From Diplonema papillatum (Eukaryota; Euglenozoa; Diplonemea; Diplonemida; Diplonemidae): a DNA stretch of 64,000 bases. This document shows, piece after piece, positions 23,461 to 61,997 of the stretch (positions are counted from its first letter, which is position 1; each line of letters opens with the position of its first letter). Under the pieces are notes generated by a model, which searched no databases, was not told the DNA's origin, and saw only the letters and a program-made list of their open reading frames with translations. Position numbers and translations under genes: made by a program. The stretch is taken from positions 1 through 64,000 of the forward strand of contig JAPJBO010000187.1 in NCBI GenBank assembly GCA_030068145.1, given 5' to 3'.

Positions 23461-23651
23461 AGGGGGGAGAGGGGCAGCTGAGGCTCAATGTACCGTACCG
23501 TCTCCCGGGGGGCGGTGCCCCCCGGACCCCCCCCTATATTAAAACTCGCGAGAGAAAACGGGTTTGGTGTCTATTCTGAAGGGAAAAACGGGCTGCATAA
23601 GGTTCTGGCCCCAAACCCCACTTGCTATCCTTCTTTTCTTGCTTGCACCAG
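23461..23651 (+). other. Probable intron end upstream of the hAT transposase exon
   Basis: The sequence holds a G/C hairpin (GGGGGGCGGTGCCCCCC, about 23509-23525). A pyrimidine-rich run then ends in TTGCTTGCACCAG at 23651, a good 3' splice site. The upstream exon was not found and may have been lost to the satellite. Confidence 0.5.
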
Positions 23652-25418
23652 GACCGCGATTTCTGTGCTTGGCTGAAGCAGGATGTGACGTATACATCGT
23701 CAACTGTGGTGAGAGAGCTTCTGGAGTTGATCGGCTTGGTATTAGAGAAGCGGCTGTACACCGAGATTAGGGAGTCCCGGTTTTGGTCAGCCACAGCAGA
23801 TGCAACAACCGACGTGACGGGAAAGCACCAACTTGTGGCCACCGTTCGTTACCTCAGGAGAAATGCTGTCCAAGAGCGCTTCATTGGCCTTGAAGTCCTG
23901 CACGATCAAACTGCAACCGGCTACGCAACGAAGATAAAGCAGATGCTGTGTTATCTCCCGAAGGGCTCGTTCGTATCCTGCTCGTTTGATGGGGCTTCGG
24001 CGATGTCTGGGAAGTTTCAGGGTGCCGAGAAGAAGGTTCGCGGTGGGATCAATGCTACTGCGCTCTTCATGTGGTGTTGTGCCCACGTCCTCAACCTCCT
24101 TGCCCAGGATGGCATAAAAGCAGTTGCGTTCATGGGAGACTTCTTCAGAACCGTCCGCGCCCTTTGGCTGATCTTCTCCGACTCCGACATCAACAAGCTA
24201 CTTCTGAGCAGCGTATTCGCAGACCCGACATTTGCAGCGATGTGTGAGAAGGTGAATCGTGCCCTGGTGGAGCCGTCCGATACACGCTGGCTGGCCTACT
24301 GGAGAAGTGTCTCTGTCATCCGTATGCAGTATTCTGCAATACGCGAAGCCCTTAGACGCATCTGGAACGAGCGGAACAGCACCCACGCAGAGCACCTGTA
24401 CAAAGAGGTGAGTAAGCCGCAATTTTTTGCATGTCTTGCACTTGCGTGTGACGTTCTGGAAAAGCTGCATGCAATCTCTCTTGTTTTCCAAGGAACCGCG
24501 ACCACCATCTCGGATGTTTGCAGAGAAGTGGACTCGCTCGAAGCAGAATTGAGGGCACTAAGCTCGGAAGAAAGGGCCAAAAAGATCACGAAATACTACA
24601 CTTGCTGGCGCCGTTCGTTCTTCGAAGCGACCAACGTTGCCGTTACCCCTGCAGCGTTCAGCACATTCCATCAGACTATCGCCTCCCCATACATTGCTGC
24701 ACTCCTCAAGTCCACAACGGTCCGGTTTGAATCCAAGGAAGTTCTTCGGCACTTCGTTGTCTTTGACCGCATTGCGTGGCCAGAGGGCGCGCACCTTACA
24801 AACTGGGGGGATGAACACATCCGGGAGCTCTACAGATACTACAGCAAGCCCGGCCGGGTCACGTACCGACAATATGAAGTGGACGTGCCAGCAACAGACA
24901 CGATGCCTCGACCCACATACAGCACCACTCGCTCGGAAACGAAGACAGACCACGGCACTCCCCTTTTGCACGGAATGACCGAGGCAGACCTGGTGAGAGA
25001 CTGGACCCTACTTAAGGAGGTTCTACGCGCCTCAAGATACTCCAAAAATGCACACGCGGTGTATCAAGCCTTCGCCCCTGATGGCACTGCGAGTGCCCGC
25101 ATGCAGCCATTGAGACAACTGGTCGAACTGGCACAGACCATTGTCAGTTCCTCTGCAGAAAGTGAACGCCAGTTCAGTACCCTGGCCCGTGTAAAGACCC
25201 GACTGCGCAACCGCATGCTGAACACGACACTGCGCGCCCTCTTTTTCATCGAAGACACCGATGAGAAGGAGATGGACGACGCGACTGCGGAGGAGGTAAT
25301 CGACCTTTTTACTTCTGGCTTCGCAGCCGAAGCCCTAAGGGCAGCATGGTTTGCTGGAGAGTCTGAGCCGGTGGAGAAGGTAGCGAAAAAGCGCAAAATT
25401 GACTTGACACTACCCTGA
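23652..25418 (+). CDS. hAT-family transposase, N-terminally incomplete
   Basis: This is an open exon of about 588 codons after a probable splice acceptor. It shows the hAT catalytic set: SATADATTDVTG (first Asp), CSFDGASAMSGKFQG (second Asp) and CCAHVLNL (the C-x2-H motif of the insertion domain). Further on are SDTRWLAYWRSV and the C-terminal dimerisation block SAESERQFSTLARVKTRLRN, which holds the catalytic Glu. A basic tail (KVAKKRKID) could serve as a nuclear signal. hAT transposases cut and paste elements with short TIRs and 8-bp duplications. The N-terminal BED-type finger is not visible, so an upstream exon is missing or lost. The frame is otherwise intact, as in a recently active element or a domesticated gene. 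It could act in trans on element J, but matching TIRs were not found around it. Confidence 0.88.
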   Translation, partial: DRDFCAWLKQDVTYTSSTVVRELLELIGLVLEKRLYTEIRESRFWSATADATTDVTGKHQLVATVRYLRRNAVQERFIGLEVLHDQTATGYATKIKQMLCYLPKGSFVSCSFDGASAMSGKFQGAEKKVRGGINATALFMWCCAHVLNLLAQDGIKAVAFMGDFFRTVRALWLIFSDSDINKLLLSSVFADPTFAAMCEKVNRALVEPSDTRWLAYWRSVSVIRMQYSAIREALRRIWNERNSTHAEHLYKEVSKPQFFACLALACDVLEKLHAISLVFQGTATTISDVCREVDSLEAELRALSSEERAKKITKYYTCWRRSFFEATNVAVTPAAFSTFHQTIASPYIAALLKSTTVRFESKEVLRHFVVFDRIAWPEGAHLTNWGDEHIRELYRYYSKPGRVTYRQYEVDVPATDTMPRPTYSTTRSETKTDHGTPLLHGMTEADLVRDWTLLKEVLRASRYSKNAHAVYQAFAPDGTASARMQPLRQLVELAQTIVSSSAESERQFSTLARVKTRLRNRMLNTTLRALFFIEDTDEKEMDDATAEEVIDLFTSGFAAEALRAAWFAGESEPVEKVAKKRKIDLTLP

Positions 25419-29419: not shown

Positions 29420-32400
29420 TTACGCTTTCTCGAGAGAGATGATGTAGCCATTCGTTGTGAATCTTCTGGCACATTCCTCCCATGAGAGTACGAATACCTG
29501 CTGGTCGTCGAAGCACACCCATTCGTCATTTTCCTTTAGCACGGTATAGTAATGACCCGCCGTCGCTCTTCCGGTGTGGATGATGAAGCCATTTACCGTG
29601 TAGGAGTCTTCCCCGATCAGAATGGTTGGTCGGATCGGGGTGCGGTCTGGTATTTTGATGTCTTCGCGTGTTTTTTTCGACAGCTGTGCTCGTTGCAGTA
29701 CTACATCCATTTGGTTTGGAAATGTGTAATACTCCTTCGTGAATACCCCTTTTTGTTGCAGGTGCTACAGGGGAAGTCGTCCACTTTGGTTGCTCTCTTG
29801 TTTTTCACTTTCTTTATCAGATCCTCTACTGACTCGGTGTAGGGCTTCTCCCTGTTTTTGAGTTCAACCATCAGGAACGGTTCTGACGCCGGCAGTGCTC
29901 GTGAAGACTCTTCGCATGTTGTACACGTTGTCAGTCGGGAGTATGTCACCGTCGCTTGGTCGTCGTCGTCGTCCGTTACGCAAGAGCGTATCCACGTCAA
30001 CAGTTCGTGCACGTCCCGCTGCGCGGAGTCGTCTGTCGTCGTGTCGAAGACAAGGCTTCGTAGTGTGGCCATTGTTCCGTGGATGTCACGGCCTGCGTCG
30101 AAATCCGTGAACAGCTGCTGCACCTTCAACTGGTGGGTGTTCGGGTGCGAAAGGCCTGCGAGCTGCAGTCGGAAGGAGGTCCTTCGCGCCAGGAACTGAA
30201 CGCTGGCGGCAAAAGAAGGGTTCGGGTTTGTGTGGCGACGTTTTCTGCGGCGAGGTTCTCCCGGGTGGAGGTCTCGGTGAAACATCGGGTGGTTGCGGTG
30301 AATGGATGCTGATGTACGGTTTCTCTTCGTTGGTCGAGCGTCCTTCGTCAAAGGCCTTTCCGACGAAGTGGTAGAACCGTGATAGCACTCGCGCATCCAG
30401 TTCGTACTTCCCGTACGTTTGCGCAACGAACGCGTCGAACGTGTGTCGGAGTTCCCGTCGAGAGAATCCACGGTTGCGGAGTCGGTAGTGGACCTTCATG
30501 ATCTCGACTTTCAGATTTGGCATATTGTTACATATGCGCGCTGCTCGAATCAGAGCGCCTTTGAAGATCGAGGTTCCGGTGTTCCGTGGTACCGTTGATT
30601 CGACGTGCGTGTACTTGATCGGATACCAGGGGAATTCCTCACCCTTGTCCAGGACGGACATCCGAATGAAGTCCGTTTTGGTATCCCTCTCCATCCGGAT
30701 CCGCATCCCCAAAAAGACTACGTCGTCGACACCTTTCGATGTTTCTCCGTACTCCATGCCGTAGACAGATTCCGGCGGTGGTCGAACGCCCCAGGTCAAG
30801 AAGTCATCAATGAATCTGACGCTGTCGGCGTGATTCCTGGCTTCTTCTTGCAATCCGTTTGCGACCAGGCCGTCGATGTACTGCTTTTCGCACCAGTAGC
30901 AGTATAGGTTGGCGAGGTCCGGGCTTGCATTGCCGCCCATGGGGATTCCTGTGACCTGCTGGTAGCACTTTCCGCCGTTCGTGACGAAGGTGTTACCGAC
31001 AATGAATTCGACCAGTTCCCGAATCTCTGCGACACTGTAGGAGGTTGTGTTCGATTCGTCTGGTTTCCCAAACTCGAAACGGTGCTTGGCTCGTTGGGCT
31101 TCCACGTTCGCTCCTTTTTCGGACGTCATGTACTCGAAAGCCTCCGCAACTGCAGACATGACATAGTCAACGATCTGATTCTGCGGAATCTTTGTGTACA
31201 TTTCTTTGAAATCGAAAGTTCGTGGCGTCTTTTTGCGAAGTCGTGCGTAGTTCGTCTTTACGTGCACTGCTACGTCATCGACCGACTCGACGACGAAGAA
31301 ACGACGTATCCCCGTTTGCGAAAACGTCGCTTCGTCCTTGCTTCGGAGCGTGGCTAGAACCAGCTTCAGCAAACCGGAGGCTTCTTGGTGGGCAGGGGTA
31401 GTTGATGCACGTGTCTTCACTCGTTTCTTGTCGCGGCCTTTTTCGTCTCGGTCCTTCTGTTCGTTTTTCTTCTCAATGTTCCCTTTCTCCGACACGCCGG
31501 CAATGTACCGCATCCGTGGCTCGGGTTTATGGAGTTTCGGGATGCCGTAAAGGTACGGTAGGATGTTGGTGTGTGTGAATTGATGTGACTTGTTGAAGTC
31601 ATGGTGTCGTTTGAGCACGTCTTCAATCGACTCGCCAACTTCCTGGTACGTTGAGCTCTCTTGTAACTCGCTCCGTAAAAGTTCCTTGTACTTTTCCTTG
31701 CAGATAAACCCAAAGTCATGGGACGTCTTATCAACAGGGAGAAATACGAGGTGCTCCTGGAGCTTTTTCAGGGTTCGTATGGCGTCTCGGAGTTGAGGTT
31801 CGTCGGTGTGTGCGTTGAGCGTTCCAAGGACGGCGTCGAACTCTTCGACCAGAGTCGTTGTGAATCTGGTCTTCTCCTCCTCGCTCGATTTCGGGAAGTT
31901 CGAGTTCACGAATTCCTCGACGTCGTGCCTTATCGAGTCGTACATCGTCATCGGGCTACTCGCGACTCGGTACTTGCGTCCTTTCCGAAAGAGCGAAAGG
32001 AGGGCTTCGTCGGTCTTCAGGTCCGTTGCAAGTCCTAAAGCGTGTCCACCAAGGTCCGCGCGGTGTGGTGTTAGATGCTGCATGCATGGACAAACCGAGC
32101 TTGAGCTAGTCGGTTGGTTCGCTTCGTAACTTACTTCGGTGACGTTGCTGACGAGGGTTACCAGAGGTGGCTTCAGTCGGTTGCTCACCATGAGGTTTTT
32201 GAGGACGGCCGGGTTGGGGCATGTTTCGCGAACCCGTGCGCGTGACAAGACGCCGGCTATTGCTGTTCGGTCTTGTGCCGGGTGATGGTGTGTCAGCTTA
32301 AAATATCGTCGTGGGGGGGCTGCCGGCTTCTCGGTTCTGTTGCGAATGCGCGTACTGAGGAGCCGCTCGAGGGTACGTACTTTTTCCGTTACGTCCTTTC

Positions 32401-33025
32401 CTCGAACGAAGGTTCTCAGCCACGTGCGGAGGCGTAGGGCACGATTGGGGTGCCATGTTGCCATGTCGTATGTTCCCAACCGGTCCTGTGGGAGTGTCAG
32501 CAGGTGGTCCAATTGTTTCCTCAACCCAGAACAGAAGCCCGGGGAGGTGTCAATGTGGAGTTCACCGTTTACCATGCGGTGCCAGACGTTGCCGTCGGTG
32601 CGTCGTTTGCGGAGGCGTTGCGGTGGACGTTGCCTCTTCTTCTTCTTTGCAGCCTTGCGGTTGACCCTCTCTCCGTGGCGCCGATTCGTCATGTTCAAGG
32701 GCGGGTTTAGCCACTTGATCCAGAAATCTTCGATAGGGAGAGCAACGCGCGCGAAGTCAGCGGGCTGTACGTACAGCCGTTCCGGAACATTCTGTATCGG
32801 ACACGCGTAGAGCTTTCGGCCTCGCTTTCGCAATTGTTGCGACACACGGTTGCCCTTGGAGTTCCGATTTTCCCAGTGCTTGCTGTTTCGCATCTCGGCC
32901 GTCTTCGACGTCTGACCCACGTAGAGGACGGTGCCCCCTTCGTTCAGAAGCACGTAGATCACTCCGGTCGTGCTGTCGGCGACGTCGCTTCGGTCGGTCC
33001 CGCACTTGTTCCGTCCATTTGACAC
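29420..33025 (-). pseudogene. GIY-YIG / Penelope RT / USP-like polyprotein, two frameshifts
   Basis: From Met at 33025, GVIYVL (about 21-26), LYVGQT (34-39) and IEDFWIKWLNPPLN form a GIY-YIG endonuclease. A basic linker follows. RT signatures are YLYGIPKLHKPEPRMRYI, FDFKEMYTKIP (motif A), GIPMGGNASPDLANLY (motif B), VRFIDDFLTW (motif C) and FKGALIRAARICNN, all Penelope-like. The RT frame is open to 30086. USP-like sequence continues in a second frame (30290 to about 29750: AASVQFLARR, AQRDVHELLTWI, CTTC and CSTC pairs). It then returns to the RT frame (29740-29420: RATAGHYYTVLKENDEWVCF). Return to the original frame suggests one ancestral polyprotein with two small indels, one near the Cys box and one in an A/G run near 29750. 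The element is probably dead, though the GIY-YIG-RT part is intact. Confidence 0.78.
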
Positions 33026-45681: not shown

Positions 45682-48331
45682 ACACGGTTGGCATGTAATA
45701 ATCATTATTAGATTCGATTAGATTTTATTAGATAGTATTAGCCTGATTATTACGTATTATTAGATCTAATAATGGGCAATAACTAATAATTTCTATAATT
45801 TCTAATAATTATTATTACCTGGTAATAATTTCTAACAATTTCTAATAATTTCTAATAATCTAATAATCGCCTGTAGAGAGTCCCAGGATGTGGGAGGATC
45901 CGGGAAAGACTACTCAGTCGGACTAGGATCTTGGCAATGAAGCCGTGAAAATGGAGGGAACCCAGAAATCAAAGTAGCTACACCCAAATCTCAGACTTGT
46001 ACTCAGTGAAAATATCTGATTTAGCTCTCGGTGAAAGTCTCAGATTCAGCTTTCGGTGAAGATCTGCAGATTGTTCCTCCAATCTCAGATTATGCACTCA
46101 GCCCAAAACTCACATGCGAGTTCAAAATCTGCGAGTTTGTGAGCGAAAACCCGGCGCCCGCCCAGAAAACATCACGGTCCCGGACGATGCTCAATGGCGA
46201 CAAACGCAAAGAAGAAGAAACACGAAAACAACACCAGAATCCATGCCAGGCAAGAGACTGGGTGGCCTGGCAGTGCAAGCCAAGCGGTGACGCCAAGGTG
46301 TTTTTAAGCAATGGTATTGTATTAATGTCGCCCCATAATGTACTTCAAGCATTTAAGCCTTCTTCGCTCGCGTGTTCGCGCCTCCTGTCGTGGTCCGATG
46401 ATTCCCAAAAAAAAAGAACGAATGAGCGCAATGCTTGCACAAAGCTTGGCCGTGCACTTCCAGCTCTCAGATGCTCTGTCAGTAGTTTCGCTGTCTCGGT
46501 ACTTTCGCGGTGGTACTGATCGCCCAGCGATAGCTCGACCTTTCCCCCAGCCCAACCGTCCCACCGTTTGGGCACCCTTTCTTTTCGTACCACTTTGGTA
46601 TGAACGTATCGAGGCCGGCAGTGCGAATCACCGCAAGTCCCAGCACTTCATCAAAGCGGTTGTGGGTAAGCCGCGGTGAAAAGGCAGGACGTGACTATGG
46701 TGCTTGCAGAAGACAGCCCGAAGAACCGGCAGAAGATCACAAGCAGGCCGTACATTCCGCGTGCAAATGAACGTGAAATGACACAGGATCTTATTGTCTG
46801 CTTCGGTGGGGTTCCAGCGAATGCCGATCATCAAAGGCCACATGCAACGGACTGTATGCCCAGCGAACGGGATTCGTGCTCAAAAGAAGGTTTCCCATTC
46901 TGCCCTAAGAATACGGGTTCTGGCGGGTAGAGGTCGCATACCCCACATGCCACATCATCGTCCTCTGCCAGGATCTTGCCTCAAACCTCTCCTACCTCTT
47001 TTGGCATCCTTCCTTTTCGACTTAGCAACAAACGGAATTGCGAACGGGGTGAAAGGAACGGTTTGGACGCACGAACACCCACCGTGACGATCACCTTCCA
47101 CTCCTAGGGGCACTTTTGCTGTGAGAATGCATGGGAAAGTCAGGTAATAATGGATTATTACCTGGTAATAATATCTAATAATGGGTAATAATTTCTAATA
47201 ATCAGGTAATAATATCTAATAATTTCAGGAACCAGGTAATAATATCTAATAATTTCTAATAAAATCTAGGGTTTATTCCCTTATAGCCACCACGATTTTT
47301 TTTTATTCCCTTATAGCCACGAAAAAAGAATTTTATTCCCTTATAGCCACGTCAATGTTTTTTATTCCCTTACAGCCACCACATGTTTTTAAATTCCCTT
47401 ATAGCCACGGAAAAAGAAGTTTATTCCCTTATAGCCACGAAAAAAGAATTTTATTCCCTTATAGCCACGAAAAAAGAATTTTATTCCCTTACAGCCACGA
47501 AAAAAGAATTTTATTCCCTTATAGCCACGGGAAAAGAATTTTATTCCCTGACCAGCCTGGACAGCCTGTACCACCCAACCAGACAAGTCAACCAGTCCTG
47601 GTTGCACCAGACACTAAGTCCTGGCTTTAAGGTATCAACGGCAAGGGTCCTCTGAGTCGTGGTTTCAAGGGGAGTTTTCCCCTGTGAAGGGGCCCCTCAA
47701 CAGTTTTCATAACACGGCATCGTAGGTCAAGAAACGGATAAGTGTGTGTTCCTTCTATTTCAGTCTGAACTGCATTTTGCATCCCCTCCCTCTCCCTCGG
47801 ATAGAATGCAAAGGACCAATTTTATGATCGGAAATCAGGCAGCAAGCCTCACGATGTATGGGGACGACAGGGGTATCCTCCTCAGAACTCTCGTGGAGGT
47901 AGGAACATAGTTTTAGACTGATCTTGCGAGGGGTGGGCACCCTATGAACACGAACAGGAGAAGGTGGCTCTCCAGGAATAAAATTCTTTTTCCGTGGCTA
48001 TAAGGGAATAAAATTCTTTTTCGTGGCTATAAGGGAATAAAATTCTTTTTTCGTGGCGGGAATAAAATTCTTTTTTCGTGGCTATAAGGGAATAAAATTC
48101 TTTTTTGCTGGCTATAAGGGAATAAAATTCTTTCGTGGTGGCTATAAGGGAAAAAAAAACGGTTGTAGTCAGTTCGTGGCTATAAGGGAATAAAATTCTT
48201 TTTTCGTGGCTATAAGGGAATATTGAAAATACCGGGTGGCTATAAGATAATTTGCCCTAAAATCTAATAATTTGGGGCGGATTTCGGGAATCTAATAATA
48301 GGTAATAATCGTGATTATCTGCCAACCGTGT
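45682..48331. mobile_element. H: 2.65-kb foldback element with TAATAAT arrays
   Basis: ACACGGTTGGCA at 45682 is inverted at 48320-48331. Next to each end are arrays of TAATAATTTCTAATAAT-type motifs (45696-45870 and 48257-48310, with another block at 47141-47268 before the nested element). The interior (about 45900-47140) encodes no protein I recognise. Element I is nested inside. The right end lies about 100 bp from the end of the USP gene. Confidence 0.7.
47269..48258. mobile_element. I: 1-kb foldback element nested in H
   Basis: The left arm is about nine copies of a roughly 30-bp unit TTATTCCCTTATAGCCACGA plus AAAAAGAATT (to 47545). The right arm (47975-48250) is about eight copies of its complement. 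The ends GGGTTTATTCCCTTATAGCC and (complement) GGGCAAATTATCTTATAGCC match imperfectly. Flanking sequence on both sides is the TCTAATAAT array of H, so it inserted there. Confidence 0.8.
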
Positions 48332-48427: not shown

Positions 48428-51400
48428 TTATACGTTTCTCCGATCCAACATTTTTCCGAACACGGTAACGCCAACTCTGGAGACTGGAACCACTCCGTTG
48501 CTGCTGGCAACTCCTCGGGCAAGCATGGGAAACTGGACACACCCCAGTTTCGAATGGTAGCAGCTGCTGGTGTAGTGCCCAACTTGGATGTCCGGGCCGA
48601 GGTGGCAGACTGCGCCCCGGAGTCGGTAGCGAGGGGATGCCGGAGGGCGTGCGGGAAAGGTTGAGCTGTTGTCTGGCTCGGGCTGCGACGACTGCTGCGA
48701 CGCGTTGGGCAGGAACTCGAAGGGTTCCCCTGGCGGTGCGGGCGGCGAGTTCTGTGTCGCCGACAACGTCGGCGACGCGAGCTCGCAGCCCGACAGCGCG
48801 GTCTGTCCCCTCTGTGCGAGATACTTGCTGAGGTCGAAGCCCTCCAACGGGAACTGCAGCGCGTGCCTGAGCCGGAGGGAGCAGGTCGCGCGGCACGCGA
48901 AGCGCTTAACATGTACGAATAGGACGTTCGGCAGTGACCAGATCTCGAACTTCTTCTTCGACGGCACTTCCTCGTTGCAGCGCGGGCACTTCCAAAAATT
49001 GCTGTCCTCCAGCTTCTCGACCCGCGTGAACAGCTCGAGGCAGCTTTCCAGCGTGTACACCTTCTTGTCCTGCGCCGCCTTCTGCTCGAGATGGCTGCAG
49101 TTTTCCCGATCGTGCACCACGATATTCGCCTCTTCATCGAAATCCGTCTCGTCCTCCGTCGTGTTCACGATATCCAACGGCCTTCTCACAGCATCGGGCG
49201 CTGACTTCAGAACGAACTGGAGCGCGCACGGAACGCGGTCTGGCTGCCATTCGACTTTTACGACGATGGGCGATGTTCTGCCTTCGTAGGCGAAGCGGGC
49301 GTGGTGCACTTCGCGCACGATGTCACGGTGCGTGGGCATCACGACGGAGTTCGAGCTATCGGGCAGCGAGTACTTCGAAGCCGCCGCTTCGTTCGCGGCG
49401 CACGAGTTGTTGGACAGCGTCTCGGACACCGCGTTCTCACTGAAGACGAAATCACTCGCGTCGCTTTCCCACTCCTTCCGACCTCCGACGGCCGCTTCAG
49501 TTGGGTCGACGTGCCGGACGTCTCCAGTTGCTGGTGCGGATCCAGAATCTTCCGCGCGGAGTTCCGGCAAGGGGGCTTCAGACGAGCCTTCTGCCGGTCC
49601 AGGTCCAGAGCACGCGGGGATGTTCTCGTTGTTACTGCTGGCAAGGGGGGGTGTTGCGGTGCCAGCGCCAGCGGTGGCCGACGGGTCGGCCGGCTTGCTG
49701 GGTGGGTCGAAGCCGTGGGCGAGGAGCATCTCCTCCGTGACGGCGACTTCTGCGTCGTCGGCGGCGTCGAAACTCTGCGACTTGCCGTCAAAGGCCGGGT
49801 ACGGCTGCATTGTGGCTTCTTCGGCGCGCCTCCGCTCGCGGACGAGCTCGAACGCCAGCGACTTCGGCGTGTGCTCCGTCCAGTCGTGCGGGCAGCAGTC
49901 ATGGTACTGCTCGGTGAGGCACTCCAAGATACGCTCCGGGGCGGTATCTTCCGGCTCCGCCAGCATCTCGAAAAACGTGCAGTCCGGAGCCGTAATCCAC
50001 TCAGCGCCGTGATCCAGCATCATGGCAAGCACGCCTGCGGCTTCACGGTGCTCGCCTGCCGAGGACGGCAGGGTGGGCGACAGGCTGAGCTCGTCCGGTG
50101 TCCTCCTCCTCGGCCGGGGGCGGAGCACAGCGGGGTACGGGTACACGGCGCACCCCTTGCACCGCGCGTTGCAAAAGCAGCTGAGCACCTTCGTCTCGTT
50201 CCAGTACCCACCCAGGATCCTGAACGGCAAATCTTTTCGCGGTTGCTGCGAGCTGTCCTCGTCGGTGTCCGCGTAGTGGACGGGGTCCGTCGCGTCGTAA
50301 CTCATGCCGCACCGCCGGTACACCTCCCGCGTCACGAAATCAGACGACGCATGGCTCACCGGCGCGATGAAAAGGAAAGGATGCAGCGTCGCGCGTGCGT
50401 TGAGATCAACGTGGTTGTTGATGATGACGGGCATCCGCGGTTCTGTGCACGGGACGTTGTAGGCGGGGGATTCGAAGAGGGCGAGCCATCGGATCCTGCG
50501 CCCGTCGAGGGTTGACGTCAGGCGGATGTCGGCGAGGAGGTTGTAGATGTTGACGCCGTCGTCCTTGATCGACGACGGATCGATGACGGCGGAGCCGATG
50601 GTGGTGTCGTACGTCACGAGCGCCCACGTGAACCGCTCGAGGATGGCCGTGTAGTCAATGCCGGCAAGCTCGCACTTCGCGCGGGGCTCGAAGCCCTGCC
50701 TCGCCAGCGTCATCTCCTTCAACAGCCGCAGCGTGCTGAAAGGGGGCAAGTGCCGCTGGTAGAGGATGGGTGCGACCGAAGGGTATCCTGCCGGGAAGTA
50801 CAGCCAGCTGATGAGCTGATTGGGCTCAGAGTCGGGGAGCTCGAGGGACAGCGTCATGAATGGGTCGAAGGTGAGATTCCCTTTGCCGCAGCGTCGGCAC
50901 TGAAGACTCGATTTCAGGAGGCCCATGCAGTGTTGCACGACGAAGGATCGGTTTCGCAGCAGGTGCCGCTTCCAGAACTCCTCGGCCACTTCTTCGACGC
51001 TCGTTGTTTCCAGCGCGGGCGGCTCGAACTTCGGGACGGGGATGCGCTCCGTCACCAGGTTGTAGTCCTCGTGCAGTCCGTCAAGGAGGGTGGCCAGGAA
51101 TTCTTGCGCGTCCTGCTGCTGCAGCTCGGCGAAGGCTGAGTTGTACTTGCCGAGGGCCCTGAAAAAACTTTGGCTCGAAGCGGGGGCGTAGTGAGCCTTC
51201 CACAGCTCGCCGATGAGCGCCCCCGTGTGCGTAGCAAGGTTGCCGCCGGAGCCGAGCGGGTTGTCTCTGTTTATGCCTTTCTGGTAGTCCTGCGCGAAGA
51301 ACTCCGCGAAGAGGGGCGTATGCGCCAGGCACTGCATCACCGAGTTCACGAAGCACTGCACCCCGGTATTGTTGATCAGTCCGACGCGCCCGGGACCGAA

Positions 51401-52027
51401 CACAGCCGGACGCCGGAGCACGGCCACAACAGGCTCGTGCACTTGAACCACTGCATGCGAGTCGCGTCTTAGGAAGGGCCAACCCGCCACTGTCTCCCCA
51501 CATGGAAACAATTGACGGTCGCGCAGTCCCGTCCAACGTCCACGGACTACCAAGTTCGGCAACAGCACATGCGCTTCTACGGCTTCTTGATCGGCGGGGT
51601 AGCCGGATGGGAACGCCAGAGACAAATGTTCAGCCCAGTCACCAAAGGTATCATCACTCCGTTGCACGTAATGGTCTCGATTGCCGCTGATGACTGCTAC
51701 TGCACCCCGGTCCTGCTCCGCTGCGAGCAAGTCGTGGATGCGCCAACGTGCGAGAACGTACCATGTTGAGTCCCCAGCCACGATCACGCGAATCACAGGT
51801 GAGTGGGTACCGCTGTACATGACCATCGTCGGCTTGAACGAGAGCGTCTTTCGCATTACCATGCCTCCCTTTGCGACTCGAATCTGCCCTGTCCACCGCG
51901 ATGCGTCGTAACTGTCTCCCCACTCCACGAACTTCTGGCATTCCTCGAAGGTGCCTTCTTCGTCTGACCGCAAGATGCAGCCGGTACACTTCGGCCGCTC
52001 GAAGAGCACCACGACCGGCCTCCGCAT
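48428..52027 (-). CDS. Ubiquitin-specific protease (USP, peptidase family C19)
   Basis: This is a single 1199-codon exon from ATG at 52027. The Cys box GLINNTGVQCFVNS places the catalytic Cys at residue 225. QQQDAQEFLATLLDGL follows at about 303-318. Zinc-finger Cys pairs are CRRCGKG and CPRCNEE, and LPNVLFVHVKRF is the usual strand before the His box. The His box YRLRGAVCHLGPDIQVGHY places the catalytic His near residue 1151. The enzyme would remove ubiquitin from proteins in cytosol or nucleus. The roughly 700 residues between fingers and His box are Glu/Ser/Pro-rich linker, as in USP4/15-like proteins. The final WxxFDD-type block is not visible: the frame runs on after SCYHSKLG into unrelated sequence, with a GTGTGT donor-like site there (about 48544). 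The true last exon may lie downstream or be displaced by element H. Confidence 0.9.
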   Translation of the reverse strand: MRRPVVVLFERPKCTGCILRSDEEGTFEECQKFVEWGDSYDASRWTGQIRVAKGGMVMRKTLSFKPTMVMYSGTHSPVIRVIVAGDSTWYVLARWRIHDLLAAEQDRGAVAVISGNRDHYVQRSDDTFGDWAEHLSLAFPSGYPADQEAVEAHVLLPNLVVRGRWTGLRDRQLFPCGETVAGWPFLRRDSHAVVQVHEPVVAVLRRPAVFGPGRVGLINNTGVQCFVNSVMQCLAHTPLFAEFFAQDYQKGINRDNPLGSGGNLATHTGALIGELWKAHYAPASSQSFFRALGKYNSAFAELQQQDAQEFLATLLDGLHEDYNLVTERIPVPKFEPPALETTSVEEVAEEFWKRHLLRNRSFVVQHCMGLLKSSLQCRRCGKGNLTFDPFMTLSLELPDSEPNQLISWLYFPAGYPSVAPILYQRHLPPFSTLRLLKEMTLARQGFEPRAKCELAGIDYTAILERFTWALVTYDTTIGSAVIDPSSIKDDGVNIYNLLADIRLTSTLDGRRIRWLALFESPAYNVPCTEPRMPVIINNHVDLNARATLHPFLFIAPVSHASSDFVTREVYRRCGMSYDATDPVHYADTDEDSSQQPRKDLPFRILGGYWNETKVLSCFCNARCKGCAVYPYPAVLRPRPRRRTPDELSLSPTLPSSAGEHREAAGVLAMMLDHGAEWITAPDCTFFEMLAEPEDTAPERILECLTEQYHDCCPHDWTEHTPKSLAFELVRERRRAEEATMQPYPAFDGKSQSFDAADDAEVAVTEEMLLAHGFDPPSKPADPSATAGAGTATPPLASSNNENIPACSGPGPAEGSSEAPLPELRAEDSGSAPATGDVRHVDPTEAAVGGRKEWESDASDFVFSENAVSETLSNNSCAANEAAASKYSLPDSSNSVVMPTHRDIVREVHHARFAYEGRTSPIVVKVEWQPDRVPCALQFVLKSAPDAVRRPLDIVNTTEDETDFDEEANIVVHDRENCSHLEQKAAQDKKVYTLESCLELFTRVEKLEDSNFWKCPRCNEEVPSKKKFEIWSLPNVLFVHVKRFACRATCSLRLRHALQFPLEGFDLSKYLAQRGQTALSGCELASPTLSATQNSPPAPPGEPFEFLPNASQQSSQPEPDNSSTFPARPPASPRYRLRGAVCHLGPDIQVGHYTSSCYHSKLGCVQFPMLARGVASSNGVVPVSRVGVTVFGKMLDRRNV

Positions 52028-53179: not shown

Positions 53180-56100
53180 TCACGCGGGCAACATGTACAG
53201 GTCAAATTGAGGAACGACATTCATTTCTGTGGCGGTTTCAGCCTCTTCGAAACATGCAACGAAAGCTCTGGTCGGGGTGGAGAGCCTTTCGTAGACGTGG
53301 AACCAGACAAGGCATGTCGGGACTATGAGAAACAGCCAAGAGACAAGCATGAAGCCGTAGGCCTGTGATCGCTCGACGAAAGTGCCGAGTTGACCGCGAA
53401 GAAGGACGAGGCCCCCACGGTACGACTCATCTTGAGCGATGCATCCGTACTCTTTGCCTGAGAGAGCCGTCATCAGAGACCAGCCGGCGACGCCGAGTAC
53501 CAGCGCCAGGAAGAACAAACCGGCTGACGCAAAAACGAAGTGCCGGACACCGTTGCGGTGCGGGAGCAGACAGCAAACGACGAGCAGCACGATCCCGAGC
53601 CCGGAGAGCGTCACAGACGCCGCCAACAATCCGCGCACTGCGGCGAGATCCCTCTCGAGCCCGCCAACCGGGCAGATTTCACCAACCGGCCGGCAGCTGC
53701 CGCCATCGCGGAGCGTGCGGTTCCTGCCACTCGGAACGCAAGCCGGCGGCGGCTCGGCGCGAAGAGAAAAGGGCAAGTTCACAACGAAGAAGCGCGACGG
53801 GGCCGCGGCGCCCGCGTTGTCTTCGGCGAAGACGAGCGTCTGCCCGTTGGCTACAGCGACCCCCGAGAGCTTCGCGAGGCCGCTGCCGGCCCCGGCAACG
53901 GACGGGCCCAGCAGCATCTCCGCCCGAGTCGTGACCGGGACGGGGTCCGCGCTCGGCACGAGCATACGAAGACAGTGGCTTGGGTACGCAAACGCGTCGT
54001 CAACGAGCAGCTCGGGGCGCGAAGCGTGGTTCTGCACGTCGGCGCCGAGGGAGAAGTCGGCGGTGAGCAGGTTTCCCTGCCGGAAGTCGTCCTCGCTCGT
54101 GCCTTCGACGATCAGCGCCGTGTCCGCGCCTTCAAGCCACGCGGCGGCAAGGATCGCCGAGCTGGCACTCGAGAGCACGAGCAGCTTGACCGCCAGCAGG
54201 CCGTACTCGCCGCTCGAAAAATCGACCGCCAGCACCGCGCACCGAGCGACGGAGCTCGCCGCGTCAAGCGGCCGCCTCATGCAAACCAGCAACCTGTCCT
54301 TCCCCTGCGCCAGCGCCACCGCGCCGATCCCCTGAGACGCACTCGCCGCGAAGAACTCCTGTGGGAGCACGGCAACCGTGCCACCGCCCGGTGCGTATCC
54401 GCTTGCCTTCGGCACCAACTCATTGCGAATCCGCCCGTCCGCGTCAAAGACCAAGACCCTCGACCCGACCATGTCCGCCGCCAGATACGTCTCGTTGTCA
54501 ACGATTTGAAGCCCGTGCAGCGAATACACCGCCGGTAAATTATGCGGTAACGCCTGGCATGGTTTGCCGGTCACCGGATCGAGCGGCACCCCTTTCAAAG
54601 TCGAACCCGACGCAGTTGACAGGGCTGTGAATACTGGTTCGGTGACGGAGGTGCTCGGAGGCGAAGCAGAGCGGACGCCCCTCTGCAACCGGACAACGGC
54701 GACCCCGGCTGAGTCAGTATGATCGCGAACCTCAGCGCAGGGAGCCTGCGACAAACCGCTTCGCAAAATGTGCACTTCGCCCGAGCATATGTCCAATGCG
54801 ATGCCTCGCACGGCGGTGTTGTCTGGGAGTGCGTATGTTTCGACCATTGCGCTCGCATTGGCCGGCGTTGTCGGAAAGTAGAAGCTTGGTATCGGCGGCA
54901 TTCGAGCGGGATCCGTCGTTCCGGACAGCGAGAAGTCTACGACGATGCCGTGCGCCTCTGCGTCAAGTCGCTCGAAGTACGAAAACGCACGTAACGGACC
55001 CCTACATCTGCCCGCGTGCTGCACCCTACCAGAGCACGACGGCAGAGCGGAACACGCCTCGAGCCATCTGTTTGGCCGGCACCCAACGAGCGTTGAACAG
55101 CGGGTCCAAGCGACCTCGTACTGCTCTGTCTCGTATTCAGTTGCAACCGAAGAGGTAGCCCAGGAGGGGTCCCTGTCGCATGCTGCCACGAGATCGAAAG
55201 CGCACGACTCGAGGCTCGGCACGTCGCACGCCGGCGGCGGCGTCGCGAACGCGGGCGACCCTTTGAACGCCTCCGAGCAGATGGCTGACAGGCCGAAGCC
55301 GACGTCTTCTCTGCCGGTCGGCTCCTCGTCGTACGCCATGCGGTACCACTGCGCCGAGTTGACCGAGACCAGGACCGCGAAGAACGAGAGGAGCGCCGTG
55401 CCCCACGCGGCAGGCGCCTGCGGCGTGCCCCACGCGGCAGGCGCCTGCGGCCACGGCGTCGCCTCGCCGGCTCCCCGCGCGCCGGCGGCCTCTTTTTCGC
55501 GCAGGGCGCCGACGTCGACTTCGTCGACGCCGCGCTGGCCGCCCCACAACCGCGCGAAGTTCGGCACCGGGCAGCCGCAGGGCAGCGCCTCCGCGCGCAG
55601 GCACGAGAGGCACCCACGCCTCGGCAGCAGGTCCGCCCGGTTCCGCCGCGCGAAAGCGAGCGCCCCGAGCGCCGCGGCGCCGGCAGCCAGCGGGGCCGCC
55701 GCTGCCGCGAACACGCGCCAGCCCGCGGCCGCGAGGCCGACGGCGAGCGCCGGGCCGCCGACGAAGGCGCCGACGACGTACGCCATCGGGAACCACCTCA
55801 AGTTCTCCGCCGTTTCGCCCATGAACTTGGCGCACGCGAGGGGCACCGGCCGCAGGGGCCACACTACGAACCACACGACGGTGCCCAGGCAGTTGAAAAG
55901 GACGTGCTCCAGCGCAACGCGGAGGCCGACGTCGACGTGGTCCCCCGACAAAGCGGAGAGAACGCCTGTGACTGTCGTGCCGATATTCGCGCCGTGAGTC
56001 AGCGGCACCATCTTCTCGATGTGGACGAGACCGATTCCAACGAGCGGTGTCAGCGTCGAAGTGAACACCGACGAAGACTGGACAAGTATGGTTGCCCCGG

Positions 56101-57202
56101 TGCCGAAGAGTAGGAGGATGTAGTTGTCGAGACCGCCCGCGATTCTCAGCAGGGGATGCTTGAACTCGAGATTGAGGAGGTACCGGGTCCAGATGGCGAC
56201 TCTGCCCTGCAGGACGGAAGCCAGCAACTTGACCAACATCAACAGACAGGTCGTGAGCATGGCGAGTGAGACGAAGAGGAGGAGGAGACCAACCTCAGTG
56301 TCCGAGATGGGCGAGGTCCTGAACAAGTGGTGTCCGGACTGCCTGACAATGGTTTCCTTCTCCAAACCGGACAGGACCGCGGGCGACTCCGCCCGTGCTA
56401 TGGCCTCAATGAGGCCTTTGTCGACGGACACGACCCTCCCGGTGACCGGCTTGGTCAGGCGTTTGAGAAACTCGGGCTCTTTTCCCTCTGTTTCGCGTCC
56501 AAGGGCGAGGCCGTCCACTATGGCCTTCGATATTCTCAAGAGGAACCCCGAGGAGACTTCGAGGGGGAGGAAGATGGAGACGGTGAGCCAGTTGAACATA
56601 TCATGGAAGACGGCCGCTGTGAAGGCGCGCCTGTACTCTTCGGCGTTGTTAATGTGGGCGAAGGATACAAGAGTGTTGGTTACCGAAGTTCCGATGTTCG
56701 CTCCCATTACTAAGTAGGCTGCATCATGGGCCGTGACGAGCCCCGACGCGGCCATCGAAATTATGATTGACGTCGTCGTCGAAGATGACTGCATCAACAC
56801 CGTGGCCAGAATCCCAATAGACACTCCTGCAAACGGGTTCGCCAGCAGCTCGCTGTCCCGGAACGTTCTACCCGAAGAGCGTCCCCCCAGAATCTGGAAC
56901 GCGTCGCCCATAAGCCCCAGGGCGATGATGAACAAATACAGGACGCCCACCACGCAGCACAACTTCCCGACGCCCTCGAGTACCGAGACTGTTTTTCCGA
57001 CCGCTGTTTGGTCGCTCCACGATAGCTCGGCTTCGGCTTTCGCGTGGCCCATGTCCTTCAGCCCCCAGTGATCTACGATTCCTCGATCCTGCTCCGCCAC
57101 CAGGCCCGCCCACAAGTCTTCGAATGCAAGCTCGGCTTCATTGTCCGCAGGAGCGAGCGTGTCGCGCCCGAGGGGCGTGCTCCGGAACTCCTTCCACGTC
57201 AC
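53180..57202 (-). CDS. SLC34-type Na/phosphate symporter fused to phytase-like ectodomain
   Basis: This is an open frame of 1340 codons, numbered from the first codon here (GTG at 57202). The frame stays open upstream, so the true start is an upstream exon or Met51. Residues 80-500 form the type II Na/Pi transporter core with its inverted repeats: MQSSSTTTSIIISM (QSSS 138-141) with GANIGTSVTN, and VQSSSVFTSTLTPLVGIGLV (QSSS 375-378) with GANIGTTVTG. One more membrane span is near 601-616. Residues 617-1190 are a Cys-containing, NxT/S-containing region with repeated blade-like motifs: VRGIALDICSGEVHILRSG, SRVLVFDADGRIRNELV, GIGAVALAQGKDRLLVCMRR and LSGVAVANGQTLVFAEDNAG. These resemble the 'esterase-like activity of phytase' family. 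Three spans follow (about 1191-1213, 1219-1243, 1280-1303). It could release phosphate outside the membrane and import it; that coupling is inference. Confidence 0.8.
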   Translation of the reverse strand: MTWKEFRSTPLGRDTLAPADNEAELAFEDLWAGLVAEQDRGIVDHWGLKDMGHAKAEAELSWSDQTAVGKTVSVLEGVGKLCCVVGVLYLFIIALGLMGDAFQILGGRSSGRTFRDSELLANPFAGVSIGILATVLMQSSSTTTSIIISMAASGLVTAHDAAYLVMGANIGTSVTNTLVSFAHINNAEEYRRAFTAAVFHDMFNWLTVSIFLPLEVSSGFLLRISKAIVDGLALGRETEGKEPEFLKRLTKPVTGRVVSVDKGLIEAIARAESPAVLSGLEKETIVRQSGHHLFRTSPISDTEVGLLLLFVSLAMLTTCLLMLVKLLASVLQGRVAIWTRYLLNLEFKHPLLRIAGGLDNYILLLFGTGATILVQSSSVFTSTLTPLVGIGLVHIEKMVPLTHGANIGTTVTGVLSALSGDHVDVGLRVALEHVLFNCLGTVVWFVVWPLRPVPLACAKFMGETAENLRWFPMAYVVGAFVGGPALAVGLAAAGWRVFAAAAAPLAAGAAALGALAFARRNRADLLPRRGCLSCLRAEALPCGCPVPNFARLWGGQRGVDEVDVGALREKEAAGARGAGEATPWPQAPAAWGTPQAPAAWGTALLSFFAVLVSVNSAQWYRMAYDEEPTGREDVGFGLSAICSEAFKGSPAFATPPPACDVPSLESCAFDLVAACDRDPSWATSSVATEYETEQYEVAWTRCSTLVGCRPNRWLEACSALPSCSGRVQHAGRCRGPLRAFSYFERLDAEAHGIVVDFSLSGTTDPARMPPIPSFYFPTTPANASAMVETYALPDNTAVRGIALDICSGEVHILRSGLSQAPCAEVRDHTDSAGVAVVRLQRGVRSASPPSTSVTEPVFTALSTASGSTLKGVPLDPVTGKPCQALPHNLPAVYSLHGLQIVDNETYLAADMVGSRVLVFDADGRIRNELVPKASGYAPGGGTVAVLPQEFFAASASQGIGAVALAQGKDRLLVCMRRPLDAASSVARCAVLAVDFSSGEYGLLAVKLLVLSSASSAILAAAWLEGADTALIVEGTSEDDFRQGNLLTADFSLGADVQNHASRPELLVDDAFAYPSHCLRMLVPSADPVPVTTRAEMLLGPSVAGAGSGLAKLSGVAVANGQTLVFAEDNAGAAAPSRFFVVNLPFSLRAEPPPACVPSGRNRTLRDGGSCRPVGEICPVGGLERDLAAVRGLLAASVTLSGLGIVLLVVCCLLPHRNGVRHFVFASAGLFFLALVLGVAGWSLMTALSGKEYGCIAQDESYRGGLVLLRGQLGTFVERSQAYGFMLVSWLFLIVPTCLVWFHVYERLSTPTRAFVACFEEAETATEMNVVPQFDLYMLPA

Positions 57203-57420
57203 GTATCTGCCGCCGTGCGCGTACCATCGTCGGTCGGGCTTGCCTTCCGGAATGAGCTGCTCGTCGTTGATACCCGCAGTGAGGGTCCTTTCGTCGTCGG
57301 TCGGGTCGGGCAGACCCCCGCCTAAGCACGATCGCAGCTCTCCGACCGTTGTGGCAGGTGTGTATTTTCGTTTCGGATGTCACCTGTTGCGGTTTAGTCG
57401 ACAATTAGTGGTCGTTCGAT
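57203..57420 (-). other. Possible 5' coding extension of the transporter
   Basis: The transporter frame continues upstream of 57202 for about 55 codons (TVGELRSCLGGGLPDPTDDE is readable) to a TGA near 57380, without a Met. AG sites at CCGCAACAG and GGTCGGAG could be splice acceptors. A short upstream Met frame (57456, MAEPHCALS) could be a first exon. None of this is certain. Confidence 0.35.
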
Positions 57421-58817
57421 AAGAAACCCACTTAGGGCACAGTGTGGCTCTGCCATTCGGTTCGGAGGTACGAAGATCTCGTCGGGACATCTACCGCAGA
57501 TATCCTGCCCCACGAACAAAGTACCGCTTTCGAGGGTAGTCGTATCGGCCACCCGTGCAGTAACGACACCAACAGTGATGCACGAGGGATCCCGCTCTAT
57601 TCTCGCTTTTCCTCAAGAGTCGCCACAGACGGCCGGATCATCGTGGTGGCTCGTGGTCATATTCCAACAGGATCACACCGCCGATGCTTGCGAACGACCG
57701 CAAGCCCACTGCACGGGTTACGCGAATTAAAAATGAAGTGTTGATGACTTAAAGGACAAAGAATGCTGGGTAAAGCCTGAGTAGCGACGGAAAGGTAGTT
57801 GAGGGCCGAGACATAGAAGCAGGGGATCAGAAGAAGAAAGCGGAACGAGGAAGAGAAAACAAGGGCCGTCACGGCGGTGGGAGGTGGAGGGGTCGCTTTC
57901 ACGGTGCACTCGTCACTGTAGGCATCAACTGTGTGTGTGTGTGTGTGTTGTCATGACAAGCGATCACTTGTCGTGACAACGACTTTCGTAAACAGACGCG
58001 CAAATTGCTGTCATTGGCAAGCAATGCGTACTCACTGTTGGCAGGCCGGGAGCAAGGACGCTGTCAAAAGACCCGTCACCGACAAACAAACCGGCCATGT
58101 TGCGGTTTCCCGTCACTTGTACTTGGAAATGTGCCTGACCTTGGGTCGTGACTGGTGCATCGAGTGGGTGACTGTTTTCTGACAATCGGTTGGAACGAAC
58201 TCGTGACAAGTGCATCGAGGGTGGATGACTGTTTCTGACACTCGGTTGGAGTAAACCCGACCCTTCTAGGCCATGCCTGCTGGAAGTACTGTCGGCGATC
58301 TGGTAAAACTTTCCGACTCCGGACACGGCACCTGGGCGCACACGGTGAAACGCCTCTGCGGGTTTGGCCTGTTGAACGGATCTGACACGCAGTTCAAACG
58401 TCTTCACGAGTCCAGAGCATCATCGCGGGTGCTGGACGCAGGCGCGACCTGGCGGGCAGCTGCGTTTCAGCGAAGCCAATCACACGATGGCACGATCCTG
58501 TCAGCCTGTCTCCGTCTCATGCGAGGTGAACGCTATGACGCTAAGGCAACGTTCTACCGGGGGCCTAATACACGCCACGGAACGCCGCGCATTTGTCTCG
58601 CGTGTACTCATGTCGTGCAGGAATAACAGAAAAAAGGGGAGAGAACATCGCGCTCGCAGGTGCTGGTGCTGCGCTGATAGACAACCCTCTGATACACTTT
58701 CGCTCCGCGTTCGGTCGAACACTGAGCTTTGCAGATGGCATTGCTGGGCCAGCATCCTTTGCTTGCGCTCGTCCTGTTTTGTCGCAGTTGGCCGGCCCTC
58801 TGGGCGATGCCGCACCT
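57421..58817. other. Intergenic region between transporter and PARN
   Basis: It contains a (GT)9 microsatellite at 57931-57948 and an approximately 59-bp tandem duplication at about 58140-58255 (GTGCATCGAG...GACTGTTT). It should hold the transporter promoter and the PARN 3' UTR. No gene recognised. Confidence 0.5.
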
Positions 58818-61800
58818 TCACCCAACTTTTCTTTTCGTAGCAGGTGGTTCGGGTGTGGTCGGCGATATGGTCGGCGAAGGCGACTCGGCTTCGACGGTAG
58901 CGGGGGCTGCGGTGCTGTCGGCAGGAGCCAGAGGCACGGAGGCAGTCGCGGGCTCCAAGGGACGCTTTAAAGTGCGGCGGTTCGCGTCGTCTGCTGCGGA
59001 ATTGAGCGGTGCCGTCGACGCCGGAGTCACGACCGGGTTTTGTGGGCGCGTCGTCGGCGATCGAGGAACCTTTCGGGTTGCCGGGGCTGACGCGCCGGCG
59101 GCGGCCTTCTTGTGGGGGGAAGAGGTCGGTGGTCGCATAGCCGCGCGCGACGAGACTTTGCGCTTGAGCTGGCTCTTCAACTTCTCGAGCGCTGTCACGC
59201 TGACGCTGGCGCTTGGGGGCGAGTTTGGTTTGTCAGCCTTCTCGGCGTTCGTGGGGGACGTGGTGCTCGGCAGTGTGGCGGGGGAACCGGTGCCAGAGGA
59301 TGACTGCGCCGCGACCAACTGTTTTACGGCCAGGTGCTTGGCCCCGCTGGCGATAATTCCTCCTGCATCATTCCTCGTGTAAGTCAGATTTCCCATGGTG
59401 CTCACACCGCTCAGCCCGACCTGCTGCTGGCGAAGCAACGACTGCTTCACTGCTGTAACGGCTGGGCTTATCTGAAGCGGAGCCAGGCCCTCGCTCAGCT
59501 TCTTGTACAATTCGCTCGGGGGGCAGTCCCTCCGGAACAGCACGATGACTCCCTTTTTCTGGAACTCGACCCAGTACAGCTCTGCAAACTGGTCAACTTT
59601 GCGAACCTCTGCCTGCACGCGCGCAGCATCGACGTGTCCGTTAGCTCCTTCGCCTCTTATTGTGTACGTTGTACTGTGGGTCTCATCCAACGGCGGCAAA
59701 GTAGCAGCAGAGATGTCAAGGTGGTAGGGGGCAGCAAAGATAAAAATCCGATTCACGAAAGCAAAAGAATACGGCGACCCGGGCTCGGCCTTTCTTGTTT
59801 TCTTAAACATGTGTTGGTCCTGCAGCACTCGCGTTGTCGGCGGCGGGGCGTTCTCGCCTTGGATGAGCAAGTACATGCCGAGGAATACGGCTCCGGTCAT
59901 GTACGCGTCGTACCCAGCGTCGTGCTCTCGTGAAGCGGACGATGGGATCAAGTCTTTCAGGATTGGGAACAACAGCTTGAAAATATCCTGCAAGTGCATG
60001 GATCGAAACTTGTTTCCGAGTTCATCCCCTTCGAGGATGCTTCGCTGCAAGTTCTGGCAAACGTTTGCCCGGATCTCGTCGGCCATCTCGCTGGCTTGCC
60101 GAAGCAAGTCACTCTTTTGCTCCAGAATAGACTTTTCCCTGTCCACTGCGACATCTTTGCGCTCATCCCCGCCTGGCGAGCTTTGTCCATCGGGCGTCGG
60201 TGTTAGTACACGGGACGGCGGGTCCTGGCCTTCAACTTGTTGAAGCTGCTTCTCTTTCGTTTCCTTTCGCTGCCTTTCCTTTTCAGCCAAGTCGGCTTTC
60301 AAGCGATCGAGCTTCTTTTGCCTCAGGGTAACAGCTTCGCGTTCAAAAAGAGAGCCCAGGTCTCGAGGATACCACGTGAGAAGGTGCTTTGTGTCGACAA
60401 GAACAGACACCTTGGTTGATATTTGCTTCAGAACCTCCGTGAGATCCTTCGGGAGAGGTTGCTCAAGTTGATGCCAAAGGTACCTGTGTGATGGGTTTGT
60501 TTTGGAACAATGTTCGGACGTATCGTTCAAGACTGGAGGTCCTATGAACATGTAATGGGAATAGCCTCTATTCGAGCCAACCCGGCTTTAATGCGTGAAA
60601 AAGTGTATTGTGTTTGGACTGGATTATAGTGCAGAGCTAGCTTTTTCCTCCCCTGCCGATAAGCGTAGTGCTTGGGCAAAGGCCTTCGGGCATAGTGGCC
60701 CCGCCCATGACATTTTTCCGGTCGGGGATTTTTTTCGAGGTTTGTTGCGTTTCGGGGTCTAATGTGCCCGAATTTTGCGTTTTTTGCGGAGTTTCTCAGA
60801 GAATCTCGCGGTATTTGGGTCACCCCGTCGGCCCCGGGAGAGGGCCGACGGGGGGGACGGACGGTAAAAGGCTGCCCCGGGCCCGGGGGCAGGGGCGGCC
60901 CCCCCGGGTACGAGCGCCAAACTTCTCCCGTACTCGGTGGGTCCGGGGGGGTGTCCCCCTCCGGGTACGCGCACCCGACCTTGGCTTCACCCGGACTTTA
61001 CCACCCTGGCCGAACATCGCTTCGTGCCCGAACTTTTTTTAGTATCAGCGCTTAGCACCAGAACTTAGCAACGCGCGAACTTAACATCACTCGAACTTAG
61101 CTTCACCAGAACTTAGCATTGCCCGAACTTAGCTGCCCGAACTTTACTGTTCCCCGAACTTTAGCTGCCTCCAGTCTCGCCACGCTTAGCCGAGCGCACG
61201 TACTTATTGTCTCAGGCCGAAGTGGTGGGTACAAAAACATACAGAAGATCCAAAAAGCATTGGTGGCCAACGAGTGGCTTGTTAGCGGTGAGCAGCATGT
61301 CCCACACGTCCAGAAAACCTTTTGCAACTTCAAGGTCTTTGATTGACGAATACTGCCCGCGCTGCTTAACTTTGTCCTTCTCGGTGAGGTACTGACTGCG
61401 AGACATGAAAGGAATTCCCTCCTTAATCCAACGATTGAAGTCGAAAGCATGGTCTCCCAGAAACTTCAGAGAAGAGCCGAGACATGAAAACTTCAGATCG
61501 TTCTCGACTTTGACGTTGCTGCCACTCGTGCTGCTGGACCAAGGTCGAGGGGAGATGTAGAACGAGAACGACTTGACGTCGTATTTCTTGCGGTCTTCTT
61601 GGTAAATGTAGCACGCAATGCCGACTTGTGCGATTAGAAACTCTTGCCGTCGCATTGTCGACGTGCGTTCGGCTGCTGCTGCTGATTTATCTTCTAGCTT
61701 GCGCTTGGCACCGCAATGGTGGCAAAAGTTGGCAGCTTCGAGCTGTTCTGTGCCACAGCCGCTGCATCTCCCCAACATGAATCCTCCACCAAACATTGTT

Positions 61801-61997
61801 TGTCGAAGATGTGCATAGCGACTCTTGGCAGGAAGCAGAACGTTGACGCCTTGTTGTCGTTCCCGATGCAACCCAGTGAATTCGCAGTCAAAAGCGATGA
61901 ACGTTGCATTTTTTATTGCATTCGCGACGACTGGCTTTGCCTGCGCGTAGTTCGTCTGGTCCACTTCGATAACCGCAGCAGGCTTGGTTGTCATCAC
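58818..61997 (-). CDS. PARN: Poly(A)-specific ribonuclease PARN
   Basis: Two exons, 61997-61243 and 60483-58818, give 806 residues. The junction CT|GTATGT...CACACAG|G reads LDL-LYLWHQLEQPLPKDL, matching the family at this point. DEDD nuclease residues are FIAFDCEFTGL (Asp37, Glu39), LVGHQCFLDL (Asp250) and HDAGYDAYMTG in exon 2. NRIFIFAAPYHLDIS matches the C-terminal RNA-binding region of PARN. The enzyme shortens mRNA and small-RNA poly(A) tails from the 3' end. Unusual features are a zinc ribbon (Cys78, 81, 92, 95) inserted after the first catalytic motif, a charged coiled-coil-like segment in place of a clear R3H domain, and a roughly 200-residue Ser/Pro/Ala-rich tail. The start MMTTKP is the first Met and fits the family N-terminus. 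Its intron holds a K element. Confidence 0.92.
60484..61242 (-). other. PARN intron (759 nt)
   Basis: Donor GTATGT at 61242-61237 and acceptor CACACAG ending at 60484. Removing it keeps the frame and restores a family-consistent protein. Nearly all of it is a K element. Confidence 0.85.
60534..61204 (+). mobile_element. K element, short complete copy, in the PARN intron
   Basis: It starts AAGACTGGAGGTCCTATGAA and ends CCGAGCGCACGTAC, the two K termini seen at 14774-22045. Inside are a truncated SINE-like body (CATTTTTCCGGTCGGGGATT), a GC-rich hairpin-like segment and a short run of diverged 16-bp minisatellite units (60985-61165). There is no coding capacity and no clear target duplication. 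It lies antisense to PARN. Confidence 0.8.

Follow-up and report, generated by a model that had tools for sequence, protein, structure and literature searches.

A predicted SLC34-type phosphate symporter with a domain remotely related to the phytase-like family in Diplonema papillatum

Introduction

The closest described counterparts of the protein reported here are the SLC34 type II Na+/inorganic phosphate (Pi) cotransporters, the bacterial proteins of the Pfam family PF13449 (Phytase-like; 'Esterase-like activity of phytase') and the propeller phosphatases of Pi-starved microbes. The last of these include the alkaline phosphatases PhoX and Psip1; Psip1 is also found in eukaryotic algae, and a phytase-like domain is counted as additional to Psip1 (PMC11098088). 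The secreted diatom protein PtPhos2, named 'Phytase-like', is listed with a log2 change of 7.4 without Pi (PMC7283521). In Nodularia, a gene for an 'esterase-like activity of phytase family protein', listed next to a metallophosphoesterase, is given as upregulated in Pi limitation with log2 values of 5.53 and 3.82 (PMC9846622). Here, we analyze an open reading frame (ORF) of Diplonema papillatum in which an SLC34-type core is followed, in the same frame, by a large loop related to PF13449. The ORF is located in a 64,000-nucleotide stretch of DNA (contig JAPJBO010000187.1, positions 1 to 64,000), which is referred to as the window.

Results

The architecture proposed in the initial annotation, a Na+/Pi symporter and a phytase-like domain in one chain, is real and unusual, and the family was correctly named. 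The ORF extends over 1340 codons without a stop on the reverse strand (Table 1). The best match of the core in the PDB was 'Solute carrier family 34 member 2a' (PDB 9z60, zebrafish by name; phmmer, E=4.5e-100), with an alignment spanning residues 58-274 and 289-507, which left 14 residues unaligned between the repeats as compared to 53 in the PDB chain. PF02690 (Na_Pi_cotrans) was matched in two stretches with E=2.8e-30 and 105.6 bits, well above the gathering score of 29.1. The TIGR01013 score of 278 bits was below the curated cut-off of 306.15, and the match covered residues 86-504 and positions 2-415 of the 456 in the profile. Both QSSS repeats are present, as had been noted, and the NIGTS/NIGTT and HD..FNW motifs are in place; the Asp of HD..FNW, which we take to be a mark of electrogenic SLC34 members, is kept. 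On sequence evidence, the core is an SLC34-type Na+/Pi symporter, as the initial annotation had it. Unlike the SLC34 chain in the PDB, the protein continues for about 800 residues beyond its core, a region with one plus three predicted spans enclosing a large loop.

The hydropathy profile bore out the arrangement of about 570 residues flanked by membrane spans and followed by three more. SLC34 C-termini are cytosolic, and with one added span the loop is expected to face the outside and the tail the inside, in agreement with the three sequons and 18 Cys of the loop. At residues 1002-1020, in a part of the loop that aligns with the propeller family, lies an extra hydropathy peak that might be taken for another span. 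The three-span C-terminal region matched no significant Pfam family (best E 1.8). A 27-base tandem duplication at 55393-55451 overlaps the end of the linker and yields PQAPAAWGT twice just before the added span.

The continuity of the reading frame was assessed with a codon score trained on two neighboring ORFs and applied in all six frames to 17 blocks of 80 codons each (61 in the last). The ORF frame ranked first in all blocks except those of residues 81-160, 801-880 and 1201-1280, and both blocks of the core-loop linker were among these 14. The G+C content at third codon positions (GC3) was between 0.62 and 0.95 along the ORF. The coding signal thus appears continuous through the junction between core and loop, with nothing to suggest a boundary between two genes, consistent with the proposal of a single chain. 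At the 5' end, the frame is still open 59 codons upstream of the listed start, to position 57379. The GTG is simply the first listed start, and an ATG first occurs at residue 51 (window position 57052). An additional upstream exon is possible, although inspection by eye of the upstream sequence found none that convincingly keeps the frame.

Analysis of the loop with Pfam reported PF13449 as the only family (within HMMER's filters), with 23.6 bits and E=5.5e-5 for the whole protein against a curated cut-off of 27.6. Trimming of the query raised the score to 26.6 bits for residues 617-1190, still under the cut-off, and to 27.9 bits, just over it, for residues 780-1190. Since the outcome depended on trimming, the relation was tested independently with profiles of family members drawn from plasmid records and bacterial genomes, all of them bacterial and mostly from one subfamily. 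A 90-sequence profile, which excluded the window protein and left out three of 80 loci (L031, L038 and L083) with stops in the crude translation, matched residues 861-986 with 12.4 bits; the best of 2000 shuffled loops scored 2.5 (513 shuffles listed). A profile of 24 sequences, 20-75% identical to the first, gave 14.0 bits as compared to 3.1 for the best of 2000 shuffles (492 listed), and none of five other window proteins or parts was among the matches listed; one member (L013) was shortened, so that the C-terminal columns rest on 23 sequences. Residues 891-1147 were aligned to the family by hhalign with P=90.5%, and MAFFT, without a profile, recovered the same motif order as in the bacterial relatives at 16-23% identity. 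Global alignment to the 90-sequence family kept 15 of 105 conserved columns, with many window positions left unaligned. Taken together, the resemblance to PF13449 claimed in the initial annotation stands as a relation beyond chance, but a remote one, and the full-length score does not reach the cut-off.

Other searches were less productive. The loop had no match among PDB sequences, the best PDB hits of profiles built from its relatives were weak (E 0.017 and 0.014), and NCBIfam contained no meaningful match for the loop domain (best E 0.6). No relative was confirmed in viral contigs, with the loop and the whole protein as queries, or in genome contigs, with residues 780-1190 as the query; tblastn against plasmids gave two matches at E 8-9. 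PhoX was also considered; the Pfam scan reported no PhoX family for the loop.

Structure prediction with the family alignment produced an all-beta, propeller-like AlphaFold model of low confidence (mean predicted local distance difference test score, pLDDT, 48.3; predicted template modeling score, pTM, 0.51). Within residues 896-1125, the ten-residue blocks displayed pLDDT values of 45-77, except for one at 35. The top rows of a structure search were propellers, including NHL domains, YjiK and many others, none of them specific. The repeated blade motifs described earlier agree with this low-confidence prediction.

The residues that are conserved in the family are largely lost in the window protein. 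Seven charged or polar residues do not vary among the 24 bacterial relatives (D80, D162, E164, E179, N219, E223 and R257 in the numbering of relative L011), and none is kept: the counterparts are Q840, S894, H896, M911, S956, G960 and A989, respectively. Six of these positions are in a register common to HMMER, hhalign and MAFFT, and the pairing of D80 with Q840 comes only from the MAFFT alignments. Of the remaining invariant positions, G191 is retained (G923) and P182 is not (S914); G60 and S63 are matched in the 24-relative alignment, the same Ser corresponding to Q819 in an alignment of 21 relatives. Near-invariant E298 (E1033) and D398 (D1128) are kept, but R299, K363, D368 and E383 are not (24-relative alignment). 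Of the 90 near-invariant columns of the 21-relative alignment, 22 show the same residue in the window protein: 13 of 26 Gly/Pro, 5 of 38 charged or polar and 4 of 26 others. Among the 18 acidic columns, only 3 are identical and 5 hold an acidic residue, whereas every relative in that alignment keeps 17 or 18, as expected from columns chosen from those same relatives. The charged positions are thus kept no better than the rest, contrary to the expectation for an active site, a pattern expected of a pseudoenzyme. The loss lowers the likelihood of catalysis, although general divergence or an altered site would also be compatible with it, and the earlier description of the loop as a phosphate-releasing domain finds no backing in these residues.

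Two bacterial PF13449 proteins show that the domain can be joined to other modules. One (L094:1-3624) also contains GDPD and Exo_endo_phos domains and another (L095:1-2532) an autotransporter barrel, which would tether it to the surface; thus, elsewhere the domain is joined to phosphate enzymes and is probably surface-tethered. No further case of PF13449 joined to an importer was found among the bacterial sequences and literature examined. A tblastn search with the SLC34 core found no adjacent symporter in 93 collected loci with flanks of up to 2 kb (best E 0.6), and in the same loci the loop itself matched one family member at E 0.035. No description of an SLC34/phytase-like fusion was found among the titles and abstract openings listed from the open-access literature.

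Table 1. Features of the SLC34-loop reading frame, in residues and window positions.
Feature	Residues	Window positions	Strand	Evidence
Single open frame	1-1340	53180..57202	-	ORF listing; codon score best of six frames in 14/17 blocks
Upstream stretch open in the same frame (59 codons), perhaps coding		57203..57379	-	GC3 0.68; positive codon score
Predicted SLC34-type Na+/Pi symporter core	58-507	55682..57031	-	phmmer to PDB SLC34 member 2a; TIGR01013 278 bits; PF02690
First QSSS motif	138-141	56780..56791	-	Motif search
Second QSSS motif	375-378	56069..56080	-	Motif search
Basic post-core linker (82 residues), 11 Lys/Arg, 4 Cys in CLSCLRAEALPCGC	516-597	55412..55657	-	Sequence
Predicted membrane span	about 598-617	55352..55411	-	Hydropathy peak 596-614
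Cys-rich loop part, 9 Cys	618-735	54998..55351	-	No Pfam match
PF13449-related propeller-like domain, limits approximate	about 736-1150	53753..54997	-	Pfam, family profiles, hhalign, MAFFT, model
Best Pfam PF13449 stretch	897-998	54209..54514	-	Pfam
Three predicted membrane spans	near 1195-1213, 1222-1240, 1283-1301	53300..53635	-	Hydropathy peaks
C-terminal tail	1302-1340	53183..53299	-	Sequence

Discussion

The explanation that we favor, and to which we give an even chance, is that of an SLC34 importer whose phytase-like propeller has degenerated and acts outside the cell as a binding or regulatory head. In this explanation, a eukaryotic Na+-coupled phosphate importer would have gained a further membrane module of one plus three spans at its C-terminal end. 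The module would hold outside the cell a domain of about 570 residues, consisting of a Cys-rich part and then a beta-propeller-like domain that would descend from the PF13449 family. The propeller would be a pseudoenzyme in which the conserved acidic site of the family is no longer formed, and Pi import would rest with the SLC34 core. Given the loss of residues that are invariant in the relatives, binding or regulation is a more probable role for the domain than the release of phosphate. Its ligand may be phosphorylated, belong to the cell wall or be a partner phosphatase; alternatively, the domain may act as a regulatory or stabilizing cap. Across most of its length, the domain shares remote homology and motif order with the bacterial PF13449 proteins, and in the low-confidence model it is likewise propeller-like, but it differs from them in being placed within a symporter chain and in having lost their invariant Asp, Glu, Asn and Arg.

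Several observations weigh against this explanation. The loss extends beyond the charged residues, to the 4 of 26 other columns and the 22 of 90 overall, and may in part reflect divergence alone; five charged or polar near-invariant residues are in fact kept (R841, D910, E1033, K1111 and D1128 in the 21-relative alignment). At about 20% identity, a slip in register could hide a conserved acid, and the MAFFT alignments disagree on the N-terminal Ser. The relatives compared are bacterial and mostly of one subfamily, and their invariant acids are presumed to form the active site; the binding role is likewise putative. The propeller model of low confidence was steered by the family alignment, and a single-sequence model, made without relatives, was uninformative (pLDDT 34.7).

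Three other explanations were weighed against that of a degenerate head. The protein could be a scavenging system in one polypeptide, as the initial annotation envisaged, with an active but diverged phosphatase or phosphodiesterase propeller feeding Pi to the attached symporter. The rise of PF13449-labelled genes under Pi limitation, as listed for the diatom and for Nodularia (PMC7283521, PMC9846622), the bacterial fusions to GDPD plus Exo_endo_phos or to an autotransporter barrel, and the retention of E1033 and D1128 would all fit an active enzyme; with none of the seven invariant charged or polar residues kept and so few of the near-invariant acids identical, we consider it unlikely. The loop could instead be a propeller of another lineage that serves adhesion or assembly, its similarity to PF13449 being merely at the level of the fold. 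The full-protein score under the cut-off and the unspecific range of structural neighbors are in line with this, but the Pfam scan of the loop brought up no propeller family besides PF13449, and several methods agree on the register over most of the domain, including the segment preceding the DxEG position, which makes a separate lineage doubtful. A gene-model artefact, in which two genes, or an open intron left unspliced, are taken as one frame, appears very improbable: introns seem to occur locally, since a neighboring CAF1-family gene spans two ORFs, and the 5' end of the SLC34-loop ORF has more than one possible start, but the frame is free of stops throughout and scores highest in both linker blocks.

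A further possibility, which we regard as speculative and rather unlikely, is that of a phosphate 'transceptor'. A eukaryotic SLC34 importer would have captured a scavenging enzyme and dismantled its active site, and the propeller would now sense or capture its ligand outside the cell and so gate uptake, with phosphate or phosphorylated compounds as the ligand. If the architecture is as described, an SLC34 carrier with a large ectodomain of a phosphate-scavenging family joins the two halves of phosphate acquisition, the meeting of organic phosphate outside and the import of Pi, in one protein. Should the head prove to be a pseudoenzyme, it would also caution against calling such proteins phosphatases on the family label alone.

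Genomic surroundings

The ORF is flanked on one side by a ubiquitin C-terminal hydrolase of 1199 residues, encoded in a single ORF at 48428-52027 (-), and on the other by two ORFs with matches to CAF1-family ribonucleases within 58818-61997 (-), one at 61212-61997, which also matches a zinc ribbon, and one at 58818-60551. The two CAF1-family ORFs are probably one gene with an intron. Tandem arrays with periods of 30, 56 and 16/32 were observed outside the long ORFs, at 48000-48222, 58146-58250 and 61056-61169, respectively. The first 33 kb of the window contain mobile-element-like ORFs at 84-1313 (+), 3822-6551 (+), 11171-12559 (-), 23622-25418 (+) and 30086-33025 (-), with matches to reverse transcriptase (two), RNase H, an hAT dimerization region and a GIY-YIG protein. 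A tRNA-Leu (AAG) at 14010-14091 (+) is the sole tRNA and the sole Rfam match in the window.
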